Assembly (NCBI RefSeq): GCF_016859285.1
Contig: NC_053419.1
Span: forward strand, 11,336,501 to 11,400,500
DNA from: Xiphias gladius
Taxonomy: Eukaryota > Chordata > Actinopteri > Istiophoriformes > Xiphiidae
Direction of reading: 5' to 3'
Length of the DNA stretch: 64,000 nt
Every line of letters starts with the position of its first letter. Positions within the stretch are counted from its first letter, which is position 1. Positions 2,843 through 36,653 of this stretch are shown here, one piece after another. The position numbers were made by a program, and so were the translations under genes. Below the pieces are notes generated by a model. That model saw only the letters and a program-made list of their open reading frames with translations. It was not told where the DNA came from and ran no database searches.

Positions 2843-4099
2843 GGCGCCCAGTTCCCACGGTGGCGGGGGCAGCTGAGCGGTGTGTCAGTCTGCGCACAGC
2901 GTCACCTCTTTTCACTTGCAAAGAGGAAGTAGCGCAGGGCTTTTGTTATTTGAAGTCCCACCGTCTAGTCATTTAGAAACAACTGGAATATATCCGCAGT
3001 TTATGATTTAAACAGCCAGCTATTCTCTCCTCCTCAGAGGTGTTTTAAACGGAGCGGCTTAAAGCCGAGAGACCCCCGGCCCGGTTTTGTTTTACCCTTT
3101 GGTTGAGCGGAGACTGCTGCTGTTCCTTACCAAGCACACTGGCTCTCTGGGGGTTTTAGATGCGTTCACACCTGAGCCTGGAGCCCCTGCCCTCCCGAGG
3201 ACAGCACTGTTTTGACTGCAAACGCCCCAGTGGCCCGTGGATTTTAAAAAGATAGCTTCCATACGTCTTCATTTTAGTTCTCCATTTGTGCACACTTAAA
3301 CTGGGGCGTTCGCTGGTAGTCAGCCCGCTGTCCGCAGAGAAAGTTGGGGCAACTTAAAGCTCCAGCAGCGGCACATAGGTGTAGCTGTAAAACGCACCCT
3401 CCCGTGGATAATGTGTCATAGTGTGTCACATGAAAGGGTGTTAATGAGTCCAGGTGTTTTTTGTTTCCTACTAAAAAAAAGACAACTTGATTTAGACTAA
3501 TATTATGTGTAGTCCACGAGCCAATGGTGAGACTATTTTTTGTGTGTGTGTCCTTTTAGGAAGTGAAATGCTACTGCTTTCCCTGACCTTTTCACCTGTT
3601 GTGAGAATTATAATAAAGGCGCATCCGCCAAAATGTCACGTTGCGTCAAATATGTCATTTTCAGAGGGTGAGATTTTTCGAATCAAGTTTCCATTTGCTT
3701 TATTTTGTCAGCAGCCTTTTCGCTCTGCACAAGTGAAATCCTCGCTGAGGCCAGTGAACATCTACATCCCTTTCACTGAGACCTGACTGACTTTTTGTTT
3801 CAAGTTCCTGTTGATGATAATCCGGAGGATGATCCTTTACAACGTGCCCGTTTGCTCAGCGGTTTACAGCTCTGGCAGCACAGTGCCTCTGGCTTTGAGT
3901 CCACTTCCTGGGGTCGGCTACAGGAGATCGGATATAGAGCTCACCATAATATTGCCGCGGGCGGCTTGTTTAATATTTCTGAGGCAACACCCCCCCCCCC
4001 CCCTTGACAGACCACACCCCCTCTCTGCAGATTCACAGGGGCCCTGGTCCCTCCCCCTAAACGAGCCGGCAGCCTATAACCTCCCCGGGTTTCCGCCCA

Positions 4100-4499: not shown

Positions 4500-5003
4500 A
4501 CAGCGACATATAGCCCAGGACGGGTAGCCAGGAAACAGGTCGGACCGTTTAAGGAAAACCTGCGGGGACCCGGCAACGAGGAGGCTGCCCTGTGGAGACT
4601 GTGGCCATACGTCCAACTTCCCCGAGTGAAGTCGGAGGTGTCTCTCTTCTCCATCCCCTGCGATAGGCTACCTGCTGCTGCTACAGAGGGGGAAACTACA
4701 TCTAGAGGGACCTGGATCGTTTGAGAGCACCCTTTAATGTTTTAGGGGATTTTAGGATCTCTCAAATATTAACATTTTTGCACACCGAGTGTGTTATTTC
4801 CTCTCTCGTCCTTTTTGGGATATATACAGTGATCCTTTTTTTTTCTCTTTTAGTACTTTAAAGTGCCTTAATAACTGGCTCTAATCCAGTGTAACTGTGG
4901 CATTGTTACCAGGCAAGAGACGCCCAACAGGGAGAAGACTTTATTCTCAGCTTTAGAGCCCAGGCAGGATTACTGGTTCCCCTCCATCCAGCGAGCTGCA
5001 ACC

Positions 5004-5342
5004 ATGAGCCAGGCGGATGTGTCGACTTGCTCCGCGCCGCAGAGGGTTTTCCAGGAGGCGGTGAAGAAGGGCAACACCAAGGAGCTTCACTCGTTGTTGC
5101 AGAACATGACAAACTGCGAGTTCAACGTCAACTCCTTCGGGCCAGAAGGACAGACGGCCCTCCACCAGTCCGTTATCGACGGGAACCTGGAGCTGGTGAA
5201 ACTGCTGGTGAAGTTTGGTGCAGATATCCGGCTGGCCAACAGGGAAGGGTGGAGCGCTTTACACATCGCCGCCTTCGGGGGCCACCAAGACATTGTGCTA
5301 TACCTCATCACCAAGGCCAAGTACTCCTCTGGCGCCCGGTGA
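5004..5342 (+). CDS. nrarp: Notch-regulated ankyrin repeat protein
   Basis: Single-exon 112-residue protein, close to the 114 residues of human NRARP. It begins MSQADVSTCSAPQ and is nearly identical to the vertebrate family along its length. Two ankyrin repeats are visible: about residues 50-79 (GQTALHQSVIDGN..) and 83-112 (GWSALHIAAFGGHQ..). NRARP binds the Notch intracellular domain-CSL complex and promotes its turnover, giving negative feedback on Notch; it also stabilises LEF1 in Wnt signalling. It is a direct Notch target gene. The start codon has a good context (GCAACCATGA) and the N-terminus matches the family. Teleosts have two paralogues (nrarpa and nrarpb), and which one this is cannot be settled here. 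The gene stands alone, with non-coding flanks on both sides. Confidence 0.97.
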   Translation: MSQADVSTCSAPQRVFQEAVKKGNTKELHSLLQNMTNCEFNVNSFGPEGQTALHQSVIDGNLELVKLLVKFGADIRLANREGWSALHIAAFGGHQDIVLYLITKAKYSSGAR

Positions 5343-25303: not shown

Positions 25304-25709
25304 CTTTATTGGTGATTGGTTGTGATATAACTTCTCATATTTTGTGAGTGCTGCGACAAAATCATAATCTGCGCCTTGTGTGATGCCAATTTACGTTCCA
25401 TCACTCGTTCCATCCGTGACAGGTGAGCAGCGATGTTTCCTCATCTCATGTAGTTTTTCCTTCAGGAGCTATGTGTCTGTAAAAGAGCAAAAAGACATTA
25501 GATACATTTATCCTATGTGGGTGGAGGCAGTTTAACCAAGTTTTCTTCCTGGTGTTTATCAGGTAACAGCAGTGATATCAGTGTGCTGAATTCTCTTTCT
25601 TCGACAGGAATCAGTCAGTTGGTTTTCCGTGGGCTGGGTCATCTAGATGTGTCCTTGTTTCCATTTGCATTCTGCTTGTGTTTCTGTTCTGCATTCCTGT
25701 CTTTTTATT
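25304..25709 (-). other. ambp: ambp 3' UTR with two candidate poly(A) signals
   Basis: AATAAA at 25704-25709 (minus) overlaps the last base of the stop codon. A second AATAAA lies at 25305-25310. Which is used is unknown. Confidence 0.45.
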
Positions 25710-28700
25710 TAATTCAGCATCTCACCTTTAACCACCCCACAGTACTCCTCACACTCAGCCTTGCTGTAGAACTTGTTGCTGTTGGCCTGGCAGAAGTCCT
25801 GTTTGTAGCGCACACACAGACCGATGGTGGAGTCAAAGGCCCAGATGGGTGGCTGACCTGTGCAGTGTACGGCTACCACGGGCAGACGGCACACAGCTGG
25901 AGACACGGAGCAATCCAGTGTTGATATTTTTTATGGAAGTTTTTTTTTTTGGTCGCATATTTTTTTCCAGCCCACACATGTGCATCATGACAGTCAGCAT
26001 TACTTAATTCTGGCCCAAGGATCTGTTTGACAGTTCTGTTCTGGTAGTCCCTTTTTCAAACTGTCATTCTTGAAGATTTTTTTTTTTTCTTTTTATGCGT
26101 GCCCCCTTCAGCAAACGCATAGAAAGAAAAAAAACAGGACGAAACAAAACAAAAATGCACTGACAGAATAAACTAGCAATGGGCAAAAATATTGATGTTC
26201 TATGTATTGCATGATAATCCCATATGCAGATGTTGTGTTGTGTTTTTCACTCCTCACCCTCAGTGCGACATCTCTGCAGACACTCTCTCTCATTTTCAAA
26301 GTTGTTCTGGTTGCCCAGACATCCTCCATAGTTAAAGATTTCACACCTCATTGAGGTTGCGTTGTAGTAGTACTTTTGATCAGCCCAAAACATGGTCCTG
26401 TGTCTGGTGCTGCGTTACAGGCCTCTGGGGGGGGGGTTACAACAGTTACACAGTTACAAGATCAGAATCAAGATCTCTGATCTTCCGTTCAGCACTCGTT
26501 AATTTTCATGCATGTGTTATGCCGTACGCTCATATGTAAGCCTATCATAGTATGTCAGTAATCAACTGAGTACGCAGCTCTCGTACCGGTTCCATTGAAA
26601 AGCGGTGAGTCATCACCAGAACCCTCCTCCTCTGCAGGAGCTAGAGACGGCACCGCATTTCTCCTGACCCGCTGGATGAGAGCCACAGACAGACTCAGTC
26701 AGAGATACAAAGCCGCCTGTACTACAAATATTCCAAGTATTCTCTCTAATACTGTCCCTTATGCTGTTTAAAATGACAGCATCCTATATTCTCTAACTCC
26801 TTGTTCCAATAGCTTTTCAGAGCTATATCACATTTTACAGAGGGAGTTACTAATATACAAAACTTCATTTTTTGTACAGTTGCAGCATTACATTAATAGT
26901 TTAATTAAGCATGCCTTGCCAATATTAATTGAACAAAACTAAAATGCATTGTCCACATTAATTTGAACTAATAATCTAACTCTCTAAAAGGGACTATTTT
27001 TATAATATGTACTTTTAAATTATATGTATACTGTACATCTGTTGCGAATACATCTGTAGTTTTACTTGAGGAAAAATCATGATTTTTATTTGGGGTATTT
27101 ACCATTATACTTCTTCAAACAACTTTTATACTGTTATTTTACTGTTCCACCGAGAGCACAGCAGGACAGCAAGCTGGTCTAGTTTGCATTTTTACGGCCA
27201 TCTGAGCAGGGCATGTTAACATGAAATCAATTTTCATTTTCTCCTGCTTTACAGTCAGAAAAATATGACCAGCATTAAATGTCATTTTAGGTATCCCTAT
27301 ATAAATGAACTGCTGCTACTGCTGCTGCCAGTGTTTTTAGTAATATACTACAACTACTGTAAAGACGGGATTTATAATTATTTGACTTAAAACCACTTGT
27401 ATTTGACCTACTCAGCAAGAAGAGTAAAAAAACATCCTCAATTGGTCAATTATTGTAAGACAGACGATGCATCATATAACAATAAAAGTTTGATTAGTTA
27501 AATGTGCTTTTATTTTATTTGTACCTGAGGCTCAGGCTGAGCTGGTGGTTCTGCCACCTGCTCTACAGGAACACAGTCACCTGGGCAGACATGAAATGAA
27601 AACACATCATTTAGACGCATAGACTCTTTTAACATCTTCAGTGGTCTTAATGTCTCGTTCTTGTTTTTATGCTGCCTTGCTCCAACAAAAATGTCAGTGG
27701 AGATCTGAGTGACGTTGCCATCTCCCTCCACGCACCTCGAACGCTCTGTCAAAATATCGTCTGAATGTTTCGTATCTAGAGGCACGTTGGTGCAGGCACG
27801 TTTGTGACACTCTGTGCCTCTGTGTTGTACCTCTGTTCTGCTTGATGACAATAGTGTCGTCGCTCATCCCCTGTTGTCTGACCAGTGTTTTGAAGTCATC
27901 CAGCACAGTGGCTCTCACAGCCATAGTTCGACCTGAAGAGGACAGAGTAGCTTAGCTGAAGCAGATGTTAAAGGCATTTTTAACACGGTGTAAGGGTTTG
28001 AGGTAGAAGAGTGTTTTTAAATTCACCTAATGATGACTTTAACTTAAACTAGTCAGACATTAACTTTTGTCAAAATGACTGATTTCAATATGTAATCATA
28101 CATTTCATTAGAGACAATTTATTCAATTTGATTTAAAATATTGTGTGAGAATTTATTCATATAAACGAATATGGTCTATTTTACCATAAATTAGGGGAAA
28201 TCCTAACACTTGAATACATTAAAACTAATTGTAGGAACTAGATTGATTTTGTTTTGTGGTTTATTTAGCAGAATTTAAAATTTTAAAAGAGCAAAATACA
28301 ACACTGGTAAAAAAAAGAATGAATATGCCAGTGTCTCTACAGAGTGTCCACTTACTGTAAAGCTTAACTGATGTGGTCTTCTCCCCTGCCAGTTTCTGTT
28401 TGGTCATTATCACGATCGCATACTCATTGTAGTTTGTGTGAACCACGTAGGCCTCCACGTCTGCCCCCCAGTCTGCAGGATGGAGAGCACAGGGAGAGTC
28501 ACACTACCTGTAGAGGCGTCACTGGAAAGAGCGCTGCATGGAAGAGAGAGATACGTACTTGCGTTGTGGTAGAAGAACCGTCCTGGTGTGGTGGTTAGCT
28601 CGTAATCCCCAGAGATCTCCTTACATGTTCCATGTCTGCGCACACGCACGCAAACGCACACGCGCGCATACACACACACACGCACACGCACACACACACA

Positions 28701-30151
28701 CGTTCGTGTGACAGGTCGCATGTTCACAGTTGTAGGTTCCTTTTACATCATGTATAATGCAGAAAGCATTCGACTGAATCTGACTAATCTGTGCTAAATG
28801 TATCAGATGTATCAGATTTTCTACACTTTATTTTGGATGTTGCACTGCAGTGCTGTTGATGTCATCTTCACAAAGCATTGATAGGATGGGCCTGTGTCTG
28901 TGCATAATCATTTACATAATATGCAGTTACATTTGCTATTTACATAGTTTTTCCCCACGATTTCTGCCAATTTTGCATTTCCCTAAAATATCTTTTAATT
29001 TTTAAGTGCTGCTATTTGCCTATTTTTTATTTAGCAATAATTGCATGCATGTATTGTTTTCTTTTTTACAAATATTTCTTTTTCTTATTTTAATCTGTTA
29101 GCTGAGCAACTATACCTTTCGAAAAGATATATATTTTTCCCCTTGTGTGTTTCTGTGGGTTTGTGTGATACATACACTTCTTACTCACCTGAGTACGGAT
29201 TTTGTCATCTTGAGTTTTCCTTCAGTGGTGCCTCTCTGCAGTACCAGTTTACCAATGGCTGCATCTCCCCTGTGACTTTGGATGTGGGGACATGTACTTG
29301 CCATGGCAACATCATGCCACGTTCCTAGAAACTGTTGGGAAGAGATGTCATAATATACTGTCCAGTTTACTAAAATAACACACTTAAAGCCTATAACTGA
29401 AATAGGCACAGTACTGTTGGTTCAGTATAGCAGACCAAAAACATAAAAAATGTGGTTTAGGCCACTTAAAAAAAAAAAAAAACACGCATTTGCAAAGTGC
29501 TAAAAAAAAATGAAGATGTTAATAAAGCATTTATTTTGCACTGCTGAGACCAGTAATGCATAGGGCTCAGTGCAGCCTTCCCAATGAAAACCGTGTTGAA
29601 TTTTTTGAACTTAATCATTGCTTAATCTCACTTCGCACACACAATTTAACACTTGTTCATTTTCCACTGTGTAACAGAAACTGACGTCTTTGTTCCAAAC
29701 TGCTTTATCGTTCCCAACATTTTTTAGGCATAAACATCCCCGCAGGTTTTATCTTCTACAAGATATGTATTTTGAGGTCATTAATATATGAAGGCTTCCA
29801 CTGCCTGCAGAACTGAGCATTTTATCTCCGACATGTCGAGTAAATGGTATTCAACAAATAACAGAAAGAAAAGGACAGAAAAGAGAACACATAGGAAGAA
29901 CAGAATTGCATTTCTGAGCCTCTGCTTTTAATCTTAACACACTGAATGTATTCATTCAAAACGACAGAAAACTGTACATGAAGGAGGTAAAAAAAAAATA
30001 AAATGCAAGAATGCAGAAGTCAGCGACTCACCCGGGCCAGGTCAAAGTTCTCCTGCGTGGTGTAGAGAGGTTCTGGGAGGAGAGGGAGCCCTTTGATGGT
30101 CCAGGTCCATCCCAGAACCAGAAGGGGAACCAGGATCACTGCTGTCTGCAT
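25709..30151 (-). CDS. ambp: Alpha-1-microglobulin/bikunin precursor, frameshifted in Kunitz-1
   Basis: Coding exons (minus): 30032-30151, 29189-29331, 28559-28635, 28356-28472, 27831-27932, 27525-27580, 26587-26671, 26258-26424, 25709-25896; all introns are GT-AG. With one base restored the precursor would be 351 residues (human AMBP 352). Seen: hydrophobic secretion leader ([15 protein letters not shown]), lipocalin GxW motif (FLGTW) with conserved reactive Cys (STCPH), [16 protein letters not shown]-terminal CVP, furin-like RVRR (206-209), then EEEGSG with the candidate chondroitin-sulphate Ser223, Kunitz-1 and Kunitz-2. The family is secreted by liver: alpha-1-microglobulin scavenges heme and radicals; bikunin is the protease-inhibitor chain of inter-alpha-inhibitor. 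Odd: the Kunitz-1 exon is 167 nt where phase needs 168; the break is at a T run (26374-26377). As written, the frame stops about residue 258. Kunitz-2 has Thr at P1 and lacks the usual YGGC. Confidence 0.93.
26258..26424 (-). pseudogene. ambp: Kunitz-1 exon of ambp, 1-nt frameshift
   Basis: From the acceptor (CCCCCCAG|AGGCC) the in-frame reading is [17 protein letters not shown], clearly the start of a Kunitz domain. It then runs into threonines and a stop. The +1 frame immediately resumes the domain ([36 protein letters not shown]). Flanking exon phases fit only if one base is added. Both splice sites and all six cysteines are intact across the two frames, so the lesion is either very young or a sequencing error. 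Confidence 0.85.
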
Positions 30152-32157: not shown

Positions 32158-34115
32158 TTATGTAATTTCTTCAGATAATGAGTCATTTGTCCGCTTACAT
32201 GGTCCAATATTACCAGAGTCCACGTGTGGCACCACATTTCTCCTCGACCTCTCGGGAACAGAAATCTGAATGATAGTTATGCAAGACGCCCACAGCTGGT
32301 GAAGGATCCTTCTTATTACAGACACAGATATGTGGTTGCAGTATGCAATTGTCATTTCAGTTACGTACCTGAGTCTGAGTACTGGGCTCTGTCGCTTGAT
32401 CACCTGGAACACACTCACCTGGGAAGATGGTAAGGGGGTTTCTGTTTAGAAAATCTAGTCCCTGTTTCAAACATAATAGTATTTTCACTCTTACTGTGAA
32501 TGCAGCCTCACTTGCCACCACAATGGAATGTGGCTGTTGCCTTTGCATTAAGTTTCACCTTTGCTTTTCCTGCTATGACGAGTCAAAATCTCTTCTGTGA
32601 GAAAAACGCGTGGGCACGCAACAAACGCACCTTTGTTCTGATTCATGATGATAGCGCCATCACTCGTTCCATGTTGCCTCACCAATGTTTTGAAGTTGTC
32701 CAGCACATCGGGACTCACGTCCACGGATCGACCTGAACAAGGCAGAATTTCTGTCACACACACTGTCGAACATATCAGATGAAAAACAACACATTCATAG
32801 AAAAGAGGTAAAACAAATTGTCATTTTGATAGATTCAGGGAACGGTCACTCACTATAAAGCTTGACTATGGTGGTTTTATTTCCTGATGGTTTTTCTGTG
32901 CTCAGCAGGAGCATCATTGCATACTCCTCATAGTTGGTATGAACGACGTAGGAATCAACATCTGCTCCAAACCCTGCAGGAAGGAACGTGTTCGCAATAT
33001 GTTGCATGACAGATCTGTGAGCACCAGTTGGTGGCAGATGTACCAAGCCTGCTGCATTTTAGTTTGACATTAGTAAAACCTTGTTAATGTGGTGTGAAAT
33101 GTATGGACAGAATTTACAATTTGATAAAAAAAAGGATGTGGATATGAAAGAAGCTGAGACACATACTGGCAACATGGTAGAAGAATTGTCCTGGCGTGTT
33201 GGTCAAATTATAATTTGTTGACGTCCGCTTACATGAGCCATTCCTACATTCACACACACAAGCACACATAGGTTACACTGAGTTTAACCTACTGTGTGTG
33301 TGTGCTGGCATGGATGCGAGTCTGACCTGAAAGTACTGGCTGTCAGTGTGAAGTTGCTCTGAGAAGCGACATGTTGCAGCTCCAGTGCAACAATGACGGG
33401 GTTTCCCCTCTTGCGCTGCATGTAGTGAGGACAGGTGGAAACCACTGCCACCTCATACCACTGCCCCATGAACTGCAAGGAATGCGAAAATATTCACTGT
33501 ACATTAGAAGTGAATATCCAAAGCATTAGCACGTGGAAGGGCATTCAGCCATAACAGCAATCTGTGAAGGACAGTGCTGTTGTTTATAGGTTATACTTGT
33601 GCTTTTATACTCATCTGGTACAAAATCTGATACGTTCACAAAACTTTTACATTTATGAGTGATAATTTCCATTTCCAGTTGAACTGAGTTTGAAGGACAC
33701 AAAAGGGTCGGGGGACTTTGCTAACATCATGTGATGGCAAGGAATTCCCCAAAAGGAAAAATGATTAGATACCATCATTTTGACTAGTTTAATAACCATA
33801 TTTTGACAGATTAAAAAAAAAACAGACAAAGAAAGAAAAGTGGCAGGTAGCAAGTTAGGAAAGAATTACAAAAATGACAATTTAGTAAAATAAGTCAGCA
33901 CATGACTAAAAGATGGAAGAAGGAAAATTTGAAGAAGAGAGTTTTTTGTCACACAAAGAAAACGAAATAATAAAAGTTTCATGTGAGCCACTCACCCGGC
34001 CCAGGTCAAAATTCTCCTGTGTGAGGCTAAGAGTTTCTGGGAGCGCTTGGACCCCCTGGAGGGTCCAGGCTGACCCTAGGAACAGCAGAGAAACCAGGCT
34101 CACTACTCTCTGCAT
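32158..34115 (-). CDS. Alpha-1-microglobulin-only paralogue (ambp-like without Kunitz domains)
   Basis: Coding exons (minus): 33996-34115, 33327-33472, 33167-33243, 32854-32973, 32631-32732, 32369-32418, 32158-32265; all GT-AG and in phase, 240 residues. The first six mirror ambp exons 1-6 (120/143/77/117/102/56 there; 120/146/77/120/102/50 here). Seen: signal peptide (cleavage probably after GVQA), lipocalin motif FMGQW, reactive Cys in STCPH, sequon NFT, HTNYEEYA, GECVPGDQ. The terminal exon reads ISVPERSRRNVVP, matching the ambp linker and its furin-like RxRR site, then ends after 26 more residues (..SEEIT). There is no GAG-attachment EEEGSG and no Kunitz domain. Expected to be a secreted alpha-1-microglobulin-type lipocalin. 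Its 5' leader next to ATG is nearly identical to that of ambp, supporting tandem duplication. A candidate poly(A) signal is AATAAA at 31714-31719. Confidence 0.88.
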
Positions 34116-34870: not shown

Positions 34871-34957
34871 CATACATATATAATATATAATATATAATAT
34901 ATATATATATGTGTGTATATGTTAATATACACACACACAAACACACACAAACAGACA

Positions 34958-35004
<47 letters not shown>
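34810..35004. repeat. (CT)n-(AT)n-(CA)n compound microsatellite
   Basis: (CT)n at 34810-34847, alternating AT-rich 34847-34920, then (CA)n with AA/GA interruptions at 34929-35004. The purine/pyrimidine and AT blocks are likely to be unstable. Confidence 0.95.
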
Positions 35005-36274
<1,270 letters not shown>

Positions 36275-36653
36275 CCTGGAGGTTATTTTGTTTATTTAAC
36301 AAGGTCAACACAGCAGAACAATAGAAATTAATTAAAACATTACATAAAAGAGGAGGATTTATAAATTTCATCAGCAGTATTTGCTCTCTATCATGTTTGT
36401 AGCCAGAATGATGATATTTGCTTTGCTGAGAGAAAGTTCTTTGCAGTACTTCATGGTAAATGCAGAGGACAAAGTGGACTGGAAAAACAGAGCTGGAGCG
36501 GCACATCAGATTACACCGCAACCCAGAGCTCAGCTACATCTGGGAACCTGGAGGGAGTAACAGAGACTAATTTACACTGAAGACTTGTCACACATCGCTG
36601 AATCTGCAGTTGACTACCGTTGTTTTCACATGTTCCAAAACAAATAGACGCAC

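Follow-up and report, generated by a model that had tools for sequence, protein, structure and literature searches.

Organization of the ambp locus

The window analysed here is the whole stretch of 64,000 nucleotides (G000:C20:11336501-11400500) from the Xiphias gladius genome (690.8 Mb, 1298 contigs), whose gene content suggests a teleost. Reading the exons through the window showed that it contains an ambp gene, copy 2, with ten coding exons on the minus strand, together with a tandem paralogue, copy 1. The features are as follows, in window coordinates:

32158..34115, minus strand: tandem ambp paralogue (copy 1) with alpha-1-microglobulin (A1M) only, seven exons without any Kunitz domain, closing with an RSRR site and a short tail (A1M search, PDB match, frames)
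30032..30151, minus strand: ambp copy 2 exon 1, signal peptide and start of A1M (in frame, GT donor)
29189..29331, minus strand: exon 2, A1M (frame and splice reading)
28559..28635, minus strand: exon 3, A1M (frame and splice reading)
28356..28472, minus strand: exon 4, A1M, with a G6 run inside the open frame (frame and splice reading)
27831..27932, minus strand: exon 5, A1M (frame and splice reading)
27525..27580, minus strand: exon 6, end of A1M (frame and splice reading)
26587..26671, minus strand: exon 7, furin-type site RVRR and the bikunin N-terminal linker with a Ser-Gly chondroitin-sulfate site (sequence)
26258..26424, minus strand: exon 8, Kunitz-1, 167 nt, one base short (frame reading, Pfam, 1BIK match)
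26378..26384, minus strand: likeliest site of the lost base, the best single place being between 26381 and 26380 (codon model against the relative L022, described below)
26348..26350, minus strand: premature TGA in the frame of exons 1-7 (sequence)
25726..25896, minus strand: exon 9, Kunitz-2, open, six Cys, non-canonical loop (VHCTGQ, KQDFC) (sequence, 1BIK match)
25470..25476, minus strand: last coding exon, to the TA of a TAG stop (homology of two codons aligned by eye)

Exons 1-7 of copy 2 share one open frame. Its A1M part scored 99.8 bits against the Pfam Lipocalin profile, and the free Cys and the Cys pair of A1M were matched by eye (STCPH, GTC and GDC). The sites in exon 7, RVRR between A1M and bikunin and the predicted Ser-Gly site at the bikunin N-terminus (EGSGDE in L022), presumably serve furin-type cleavage and chondroitin-sulfate attachment. 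Passages of PMC7965949 and PMC9889512 deal with the roles of these two sites, and a passage of the former with those of the A1M Cys residues. Exon 8, when whole, is symmetric (phase 1-1), and the Kunitz-2 domain of exon 9, with its six Cys, matched the Pfam profile at C20:11362239-11362394 with 42 bits. The earlier note had ended exon 9 at 25709; the donor GT at 25725-25724 indicates that its coding part probably ends at 25726 and is followed by the tiny last exon, 25476-25470 (..VVKDT*).

Human AMBP (A1M, 3QKG; bikunin, 1BIK) shares with this gene the ten-exon plan (as described in part of PMC7965949), the lipocalin, the RVRR-type cleavage site, the Ser-Gly chondroitin-sulfate site, the two Kunitz exons and an N-glycosylation sequon in Kunitz-1 (YNATSM / YNGTSM). 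In contrast to the human gene, ambp has here a one-base break in Kunitz-1, and its Kunitz-2 carries Thr at P1 and lacks the GG of YGGC.

The frame break in exon 8

Exon 8 (26424-26258, minus strand) extends for 167 nt between the acceptor AG at 26426-26425 and a donor GTGAGG. Exon 7 (26671-26587) ends with 1 nt of an unfinished codon and exon 9 has to be entered in this phase too, so that exon 8 should measure 168 nt. In the frame of exons 1-7, exon 8 encodes 17 Kunitz residues followed by STTTTQPQ and a stop codon at 26350-26348; the remainder of Kunitz-1 lies in another frame, which continues through exon 9 to ..VVKDT. In this assembly, the Kunitz-1 domain of copy 2 is thus not in one frame and is split over two, and the genome-wide Kunitz profile search detected exon 8 only as profile positions 16-53. 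The post-break Kunitz-1 together with Kunitz-2 scored 81.8 bits against the Pfam Kunitz profile (best stretch, profile positions 17-53) and 121 bits over 97 residues against human bikunin 1BIK. The frame break is present in the assembly sequence, and the bikunin matches are far above chance.

The exon phases, both translations and the Pfam and 1BIK scores agree with the earlier note, which had described an exon of 167 nt where 168 are required, with the same two frames, inside a bikunin module that is otherwise intact, exon 9 being open and the splice sites preserved. Its remark that the alternative acceptor of exon 8 gives an immediate stop was also correct; this acceptor, 2 nt downstream, was rejected. 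Programmed frameshifting was likewise rejected, as no -1 heptamer of the usual kind was seen by eye. Taken literally, the transcript would give A1M, cut at RVRR, plus a Kunitz stub of 25 residues. About 90 nt of exon 8 and two exon junctions follow the premature stop, a position at which the usual rule would predict nonsense-mediated decay.

Position of the lost base

When prokaryote contigs were scanned, a single locus matched, L022 (NZ_JASBQQ010000017.1, 4002 bp, titled Defluviimonas aestuarii), in which intron-less coding sequences of fibrinogen, apolipoprotein A1/A4/E and AMBP type are joined in one contig. We infer that L022 (1-4002) is fish liver cDNA contaminating a bacterial reference genome. 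Further relatives were not found in viral contigs (protein search), plasmids (L022 DNA and protein) or E. coli genomes (L022 DNA). The AMBP of L022 is whole (..GPCFGLHQRYFYNASSMSCEIF..CRTEAVCRLPMAAQPCTGHPPIWVFDASVGLCVPYKGGFCQTN..VVKDEPELLKGN); it shares with the gene studied here the precursor plan with two Kunitz domains, 75-80% of the amino acids and, in Kunitz-2, Thr at P1 and the lack of YGGC. In contrast, its Kunitz-1 is unbroken, its C-terminus is longer, and its Kunitz-2 retains a displaced GG (YKGGFC) that is changed here to QD (KQDFC).

When the window is read alone, the frame switch falls at a run of four A on the minus strand, the four T at 26374-26377 reported in the earlier note. 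The intact Kunitz-1 of L022 reads GLHQRYFYN, and because the post-break frame already reads Q-K-YYYN where L022 has Q-R-YFYN, the switch is placed upstream of these four bases. A codon model against L022 assigned 92-99% of the weight to positions upstream of the run and less than 1% to the run itself (four parameter sets; run-deletion boosts of 1 and 10); with two of the four sets, boosts of 100-fold and 1000-fold raised the weight of the run to 1-7% and 8-43%, respectively. At a 10-fold boost, masking L022 codons singly or in pairs left the weight of the run at 15% or below, and masking all three key codons raised it to 57%. When the Gln codon was masked, alone or with the His codon, most of the weight shifted downstream of the run. 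The placement, which leans on two codons of a single relative, suggests that the base was probably lost a few bases upstream of the T4/A4 run and not in it. The proposal that the break lies in the run, where one extra T would restore the domain, was therefore not favoured by the comparison with this one relative.

Constraint and age of the lesion

The strength of selection was estimated by a pairwise codon comparison of copy 2 with L022 only. The A1M part (199 codons) was 0.76 identical with an omega of 0.38, and the whole of bikunin after the lesion gave an omega of 0.32. Within the latter, the post-lesion Kunitz-1 (38 codons, identity 0.895) had an omega of 0.11 (bootstrap 0.01-0.44), 9 of its 14 differences falling on third codon positions in the post-break frame; Kunitz-2 (58 codons, identity 0.74) evolves faster, with an omega of 0.57 (bootstrap 0.24-1.64). 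At the codon level, strong purifying selection acted on the broken exon during most of its divergence from L022. The low omega upholds the view of the earlier note, argued there from the intact downstream exon and splice sites, that the lesion is recent or an error.

The signs of decay in copy 2 amount to the one frame break and a short C-terminus, beside these pairwise omega values for Kunitz-1 and Kunitz-2. In the last exon, a TAG stands where L022 has GAG (by eye), leaving the C-terminus several residues shorter. An inhibitory Kunitz loop usually needs a Gly before the loop Cys, Lys or Arg at P1 and the GG of YGGC. Kunitz-2 (25726-25896, minus strand) has Thr at P1, VHC in place of GPC and KQDFC in place of the YGGC motif, so that by its residues it looks non-inhibitory alone. 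The Thr at P1 is common to L022 and is thus older than the lesion, whereas QD in place of the displaced GG is absent from L022; the Kunitz-2 of fish may be non-inhibitory more widely.

Search for another bikunin and the heavy-chain partners

All 54 first-look candidates of a Kunitz family profile search of the genome were scored, which gave 41 matches, two of them, both at C20, from copy 2. Among 29 of the 39 other matches (17 distinct places compared), none was bikunin-like: the best scored 52 bits, against 91 for Kunitz-1, and 44.7 bits, against 126 for Kunitz-2. An A1M protein search of the genome yielded 11 matches, all inside the window and none outside it. The 981-bp stretch 25700-26680 matched itself alone in a genome DNA search, with no second haplotype, and tblastn for a spare Kunitz-1 exon in the window or for Kunitz remnants after copy 1 returned chance-level matches only. 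As far as the assembly shows, copy 2 is the sole gene with bikunin exons, and these searches brought up no replacement for it. In the same family, a locus on another contig (L017, C22) carries two Kunitz exons of identical protein sequence, at 3201-3308 and 4704-4811 (minus strand), 1503 bp apart, the product of a recent duplication of an exon or segment, or else a repeat of the assembly.

The heavy chains of inter-alpha-inhibitor bear a DPHF-type cleavage and joining motif. The motif, read by itself, was present as DPHF[IV] on the coding strand in three of the five ITIH stretches (L031-L033) and absent from the two on C21 (L034-L035). Since it stands in three of the five, assembly of inter-alpha-inhibitor seems to be maintained, and with it the partner system seems to be kept, as judged from this motif. 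Heavy chains attach to the chondroitin sulfate, according to a passage of PMC7965949.

Accuracy of the assembly

As error controls, we used the families for which all candidates had been scored (connexin, claudin and Kunitz) and counted full-length matches. One unbroken frame was found in 36 connexin, 36 claudin and 38 other Kunitz matches, about 49,900 nt with Kunitz counted at 156 nt each; a 39th other Kunitz match, with two stops, was left out of this total. The 57 connexin matches comprised 36 full and 21 partial ones, and the 90 claudin matches 36 full and 54 partial or multi-exon ones. Eight partial connexin and three partial claudin matches were read in sequence. Among neighbouring partial pairs (16 connexin and 18 claudin; lone partial matches fall outside this test), no exon split by a small indel was found, the smallest excess of DNA between neighbours being 91 nt, that is, introns or inserts. 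The 7tm_1 family was dropped as a control: it gave 153 matches, but only 147 of its 986 candidates were scored, best first, which biases the set against broken genes.

Over about 50 kb of control coding sequence, the upper 95% bound of the break rate is about 6e-5 per base. A higher rate is unlikely, and the prior for an error within the 1045-nt ambp coding sequence is at most about 6%. Elsewhere in the window, the A1M-only copy, a ptgds-like lipocalin and an ankyrin gene have open frames, and homopolymers reach 23 A/T and 14 G/C with no ceiling.

Explanations of the frame break

We consider it likely that the break is an isolated, recent one-base lesion in the sole bikunin gene found in the assembly, either a consensus error or a private allele, and that the species would still make bikunin. 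This explanation is preferred because the frame and splice anatomy is intact, the omega of Kunitz-1 is 0.11, the ITIH motifs are kept and the pairing of A1M with bikunin is universal in the species described. An old loss should carry more damage, so the lesion does not look like a settled loss. By judgement and not by computation, a consensus error of a non-homopolymer kind has about an even chance, and it is possible, at a visibly lower probability, that the sequenced fish carries a null allele, private or segregating; the bound on the control break rate and the open genes of the window leave room for both. Against an error or allele stand the controls, unbroken over about 50 kb, by which the assembly looks accurate, and the TAG for GAG in the last exon and the faster Kunitz-2, which both lie in bikunin and would suit a real relaxation.

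It is unlikely that the frameshift is fixed and that the species or its lineage lacks bikunin, living on A1M from two tandem genes. No other bikunin or second haplotype was found in the assembly, the controls show few breaks, the last exon has a second shortened end and the adjoining paralogue is already without Kunitz exons, all of which would fit such a loss; however, the strong constraint on the post-lesion Kunitz-1, the heavy-chain joining motifs, the intact ambp splice sites and the fusion of A1M and bikunin, kept in all described species according to a passage of PMC7965949, argue against it.

We regard as improbable a homopolymer undercall, in which the assembly would have missed a fifth A of the minus-strand run that now counts four. 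In long-read-only assemblies, the errors that remain most often concern homopolymer length (according to a published abstract), the window read alone places the switch at this run, and the run regains the codon-model weight given above once all three key L022 codons are ignored. However, with these codons in place its share is below 1% at the low boosts, the window preserves far longer runs, and exon 4 stays open across G6. As L022 and the codon model place the lost base upstream of the run, this kind of error is not favoured.

A real break by-passed by skipping of exon 8 is highly improbable: by eye, exon 7 (..ACC G) would join exon 9 (CT GTG TGC) in frame as ..NGT-AVCRLP.., giving a bikunin with one Kunitz domain that would retain the site of the chondroitin sulfate to which heavy chains bind (PMC7965949, in part) and so could still carry them, but the L022 cDNA carries both Kunitz domains and Kunitz-2 alone looks non-inhibitory.

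The tandem A1M gene without Kunitz exons

The 11 A1M matches form two tandem genes, copy 2 (27525-30151) and, upstream, copy 1 (32614-34115 in the A1M search). Copy 1 keeps an open frame through seven exons, with ..ISVPERSRRNVVPHVDSGNIGPCKRTNDSLSEEIT as its end and the stop at about 32158; its best PDB match was AMBP (117 bits; next family, 56), and its exons are 39-57% identical to those of copy 2. Both genes have the A1M lipocalin, the exon plan and an RXRR site, and copy 1, unlike copy 2, is without bikunin exons; between the two, tblastn for Kunitz exons gave chance-level matches only (E 0.41 and 8.5).

In all vertebrates described so far, a single precursor gives rise to two unrelated proteins, A1M and bikunin, for a reason stated to be largely unknown; every species with a described gene has retained their co-expression, and bikunin is made defectively in the A1M knockout mouse (passages of PMC7965949). 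Fish AMBP forms a single monophyletic group, according to part of PMC8420045. Among the literature matches listed, no title or abstract dealt with loss of bikunin in fish or with an A1M-only tandem ambp.

It seems improbable that A1M has been uncoupled from bikunin here, with one tandem gene encoding A1M alone and the other recently deprived of Kunitz-1; the light chain would then be absent or an exon-8-skipped, one-Kunitz and probably non-inhibitory carrier of chondroitin sulfate. If true, a vertebrate without bikunin or with a split pair would test the need for bikunin in inter-alpha-inhibitor and the hyaluronan matrix. The lesion in copy 2 probably reflects an error or a private allele; its intact tandem neighbour, which encodes A1M alone, nevertheless offers a case in which A1M can be studied without bikunin.

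Elsewhere in the window, the lipocalin further upstream (40102-36654) is prostaglandin-D-synthase-like by eye, with Pfam support for Lipocalin only, and the ankyrin gene at 5004-5342 is by eye nrarp. The region between the ptgds-like and the A1M-only genes contains, by eye, tandem copies of a unit some hundred bases long (about 34950-36280), each flanked by long (GT)n tracts.
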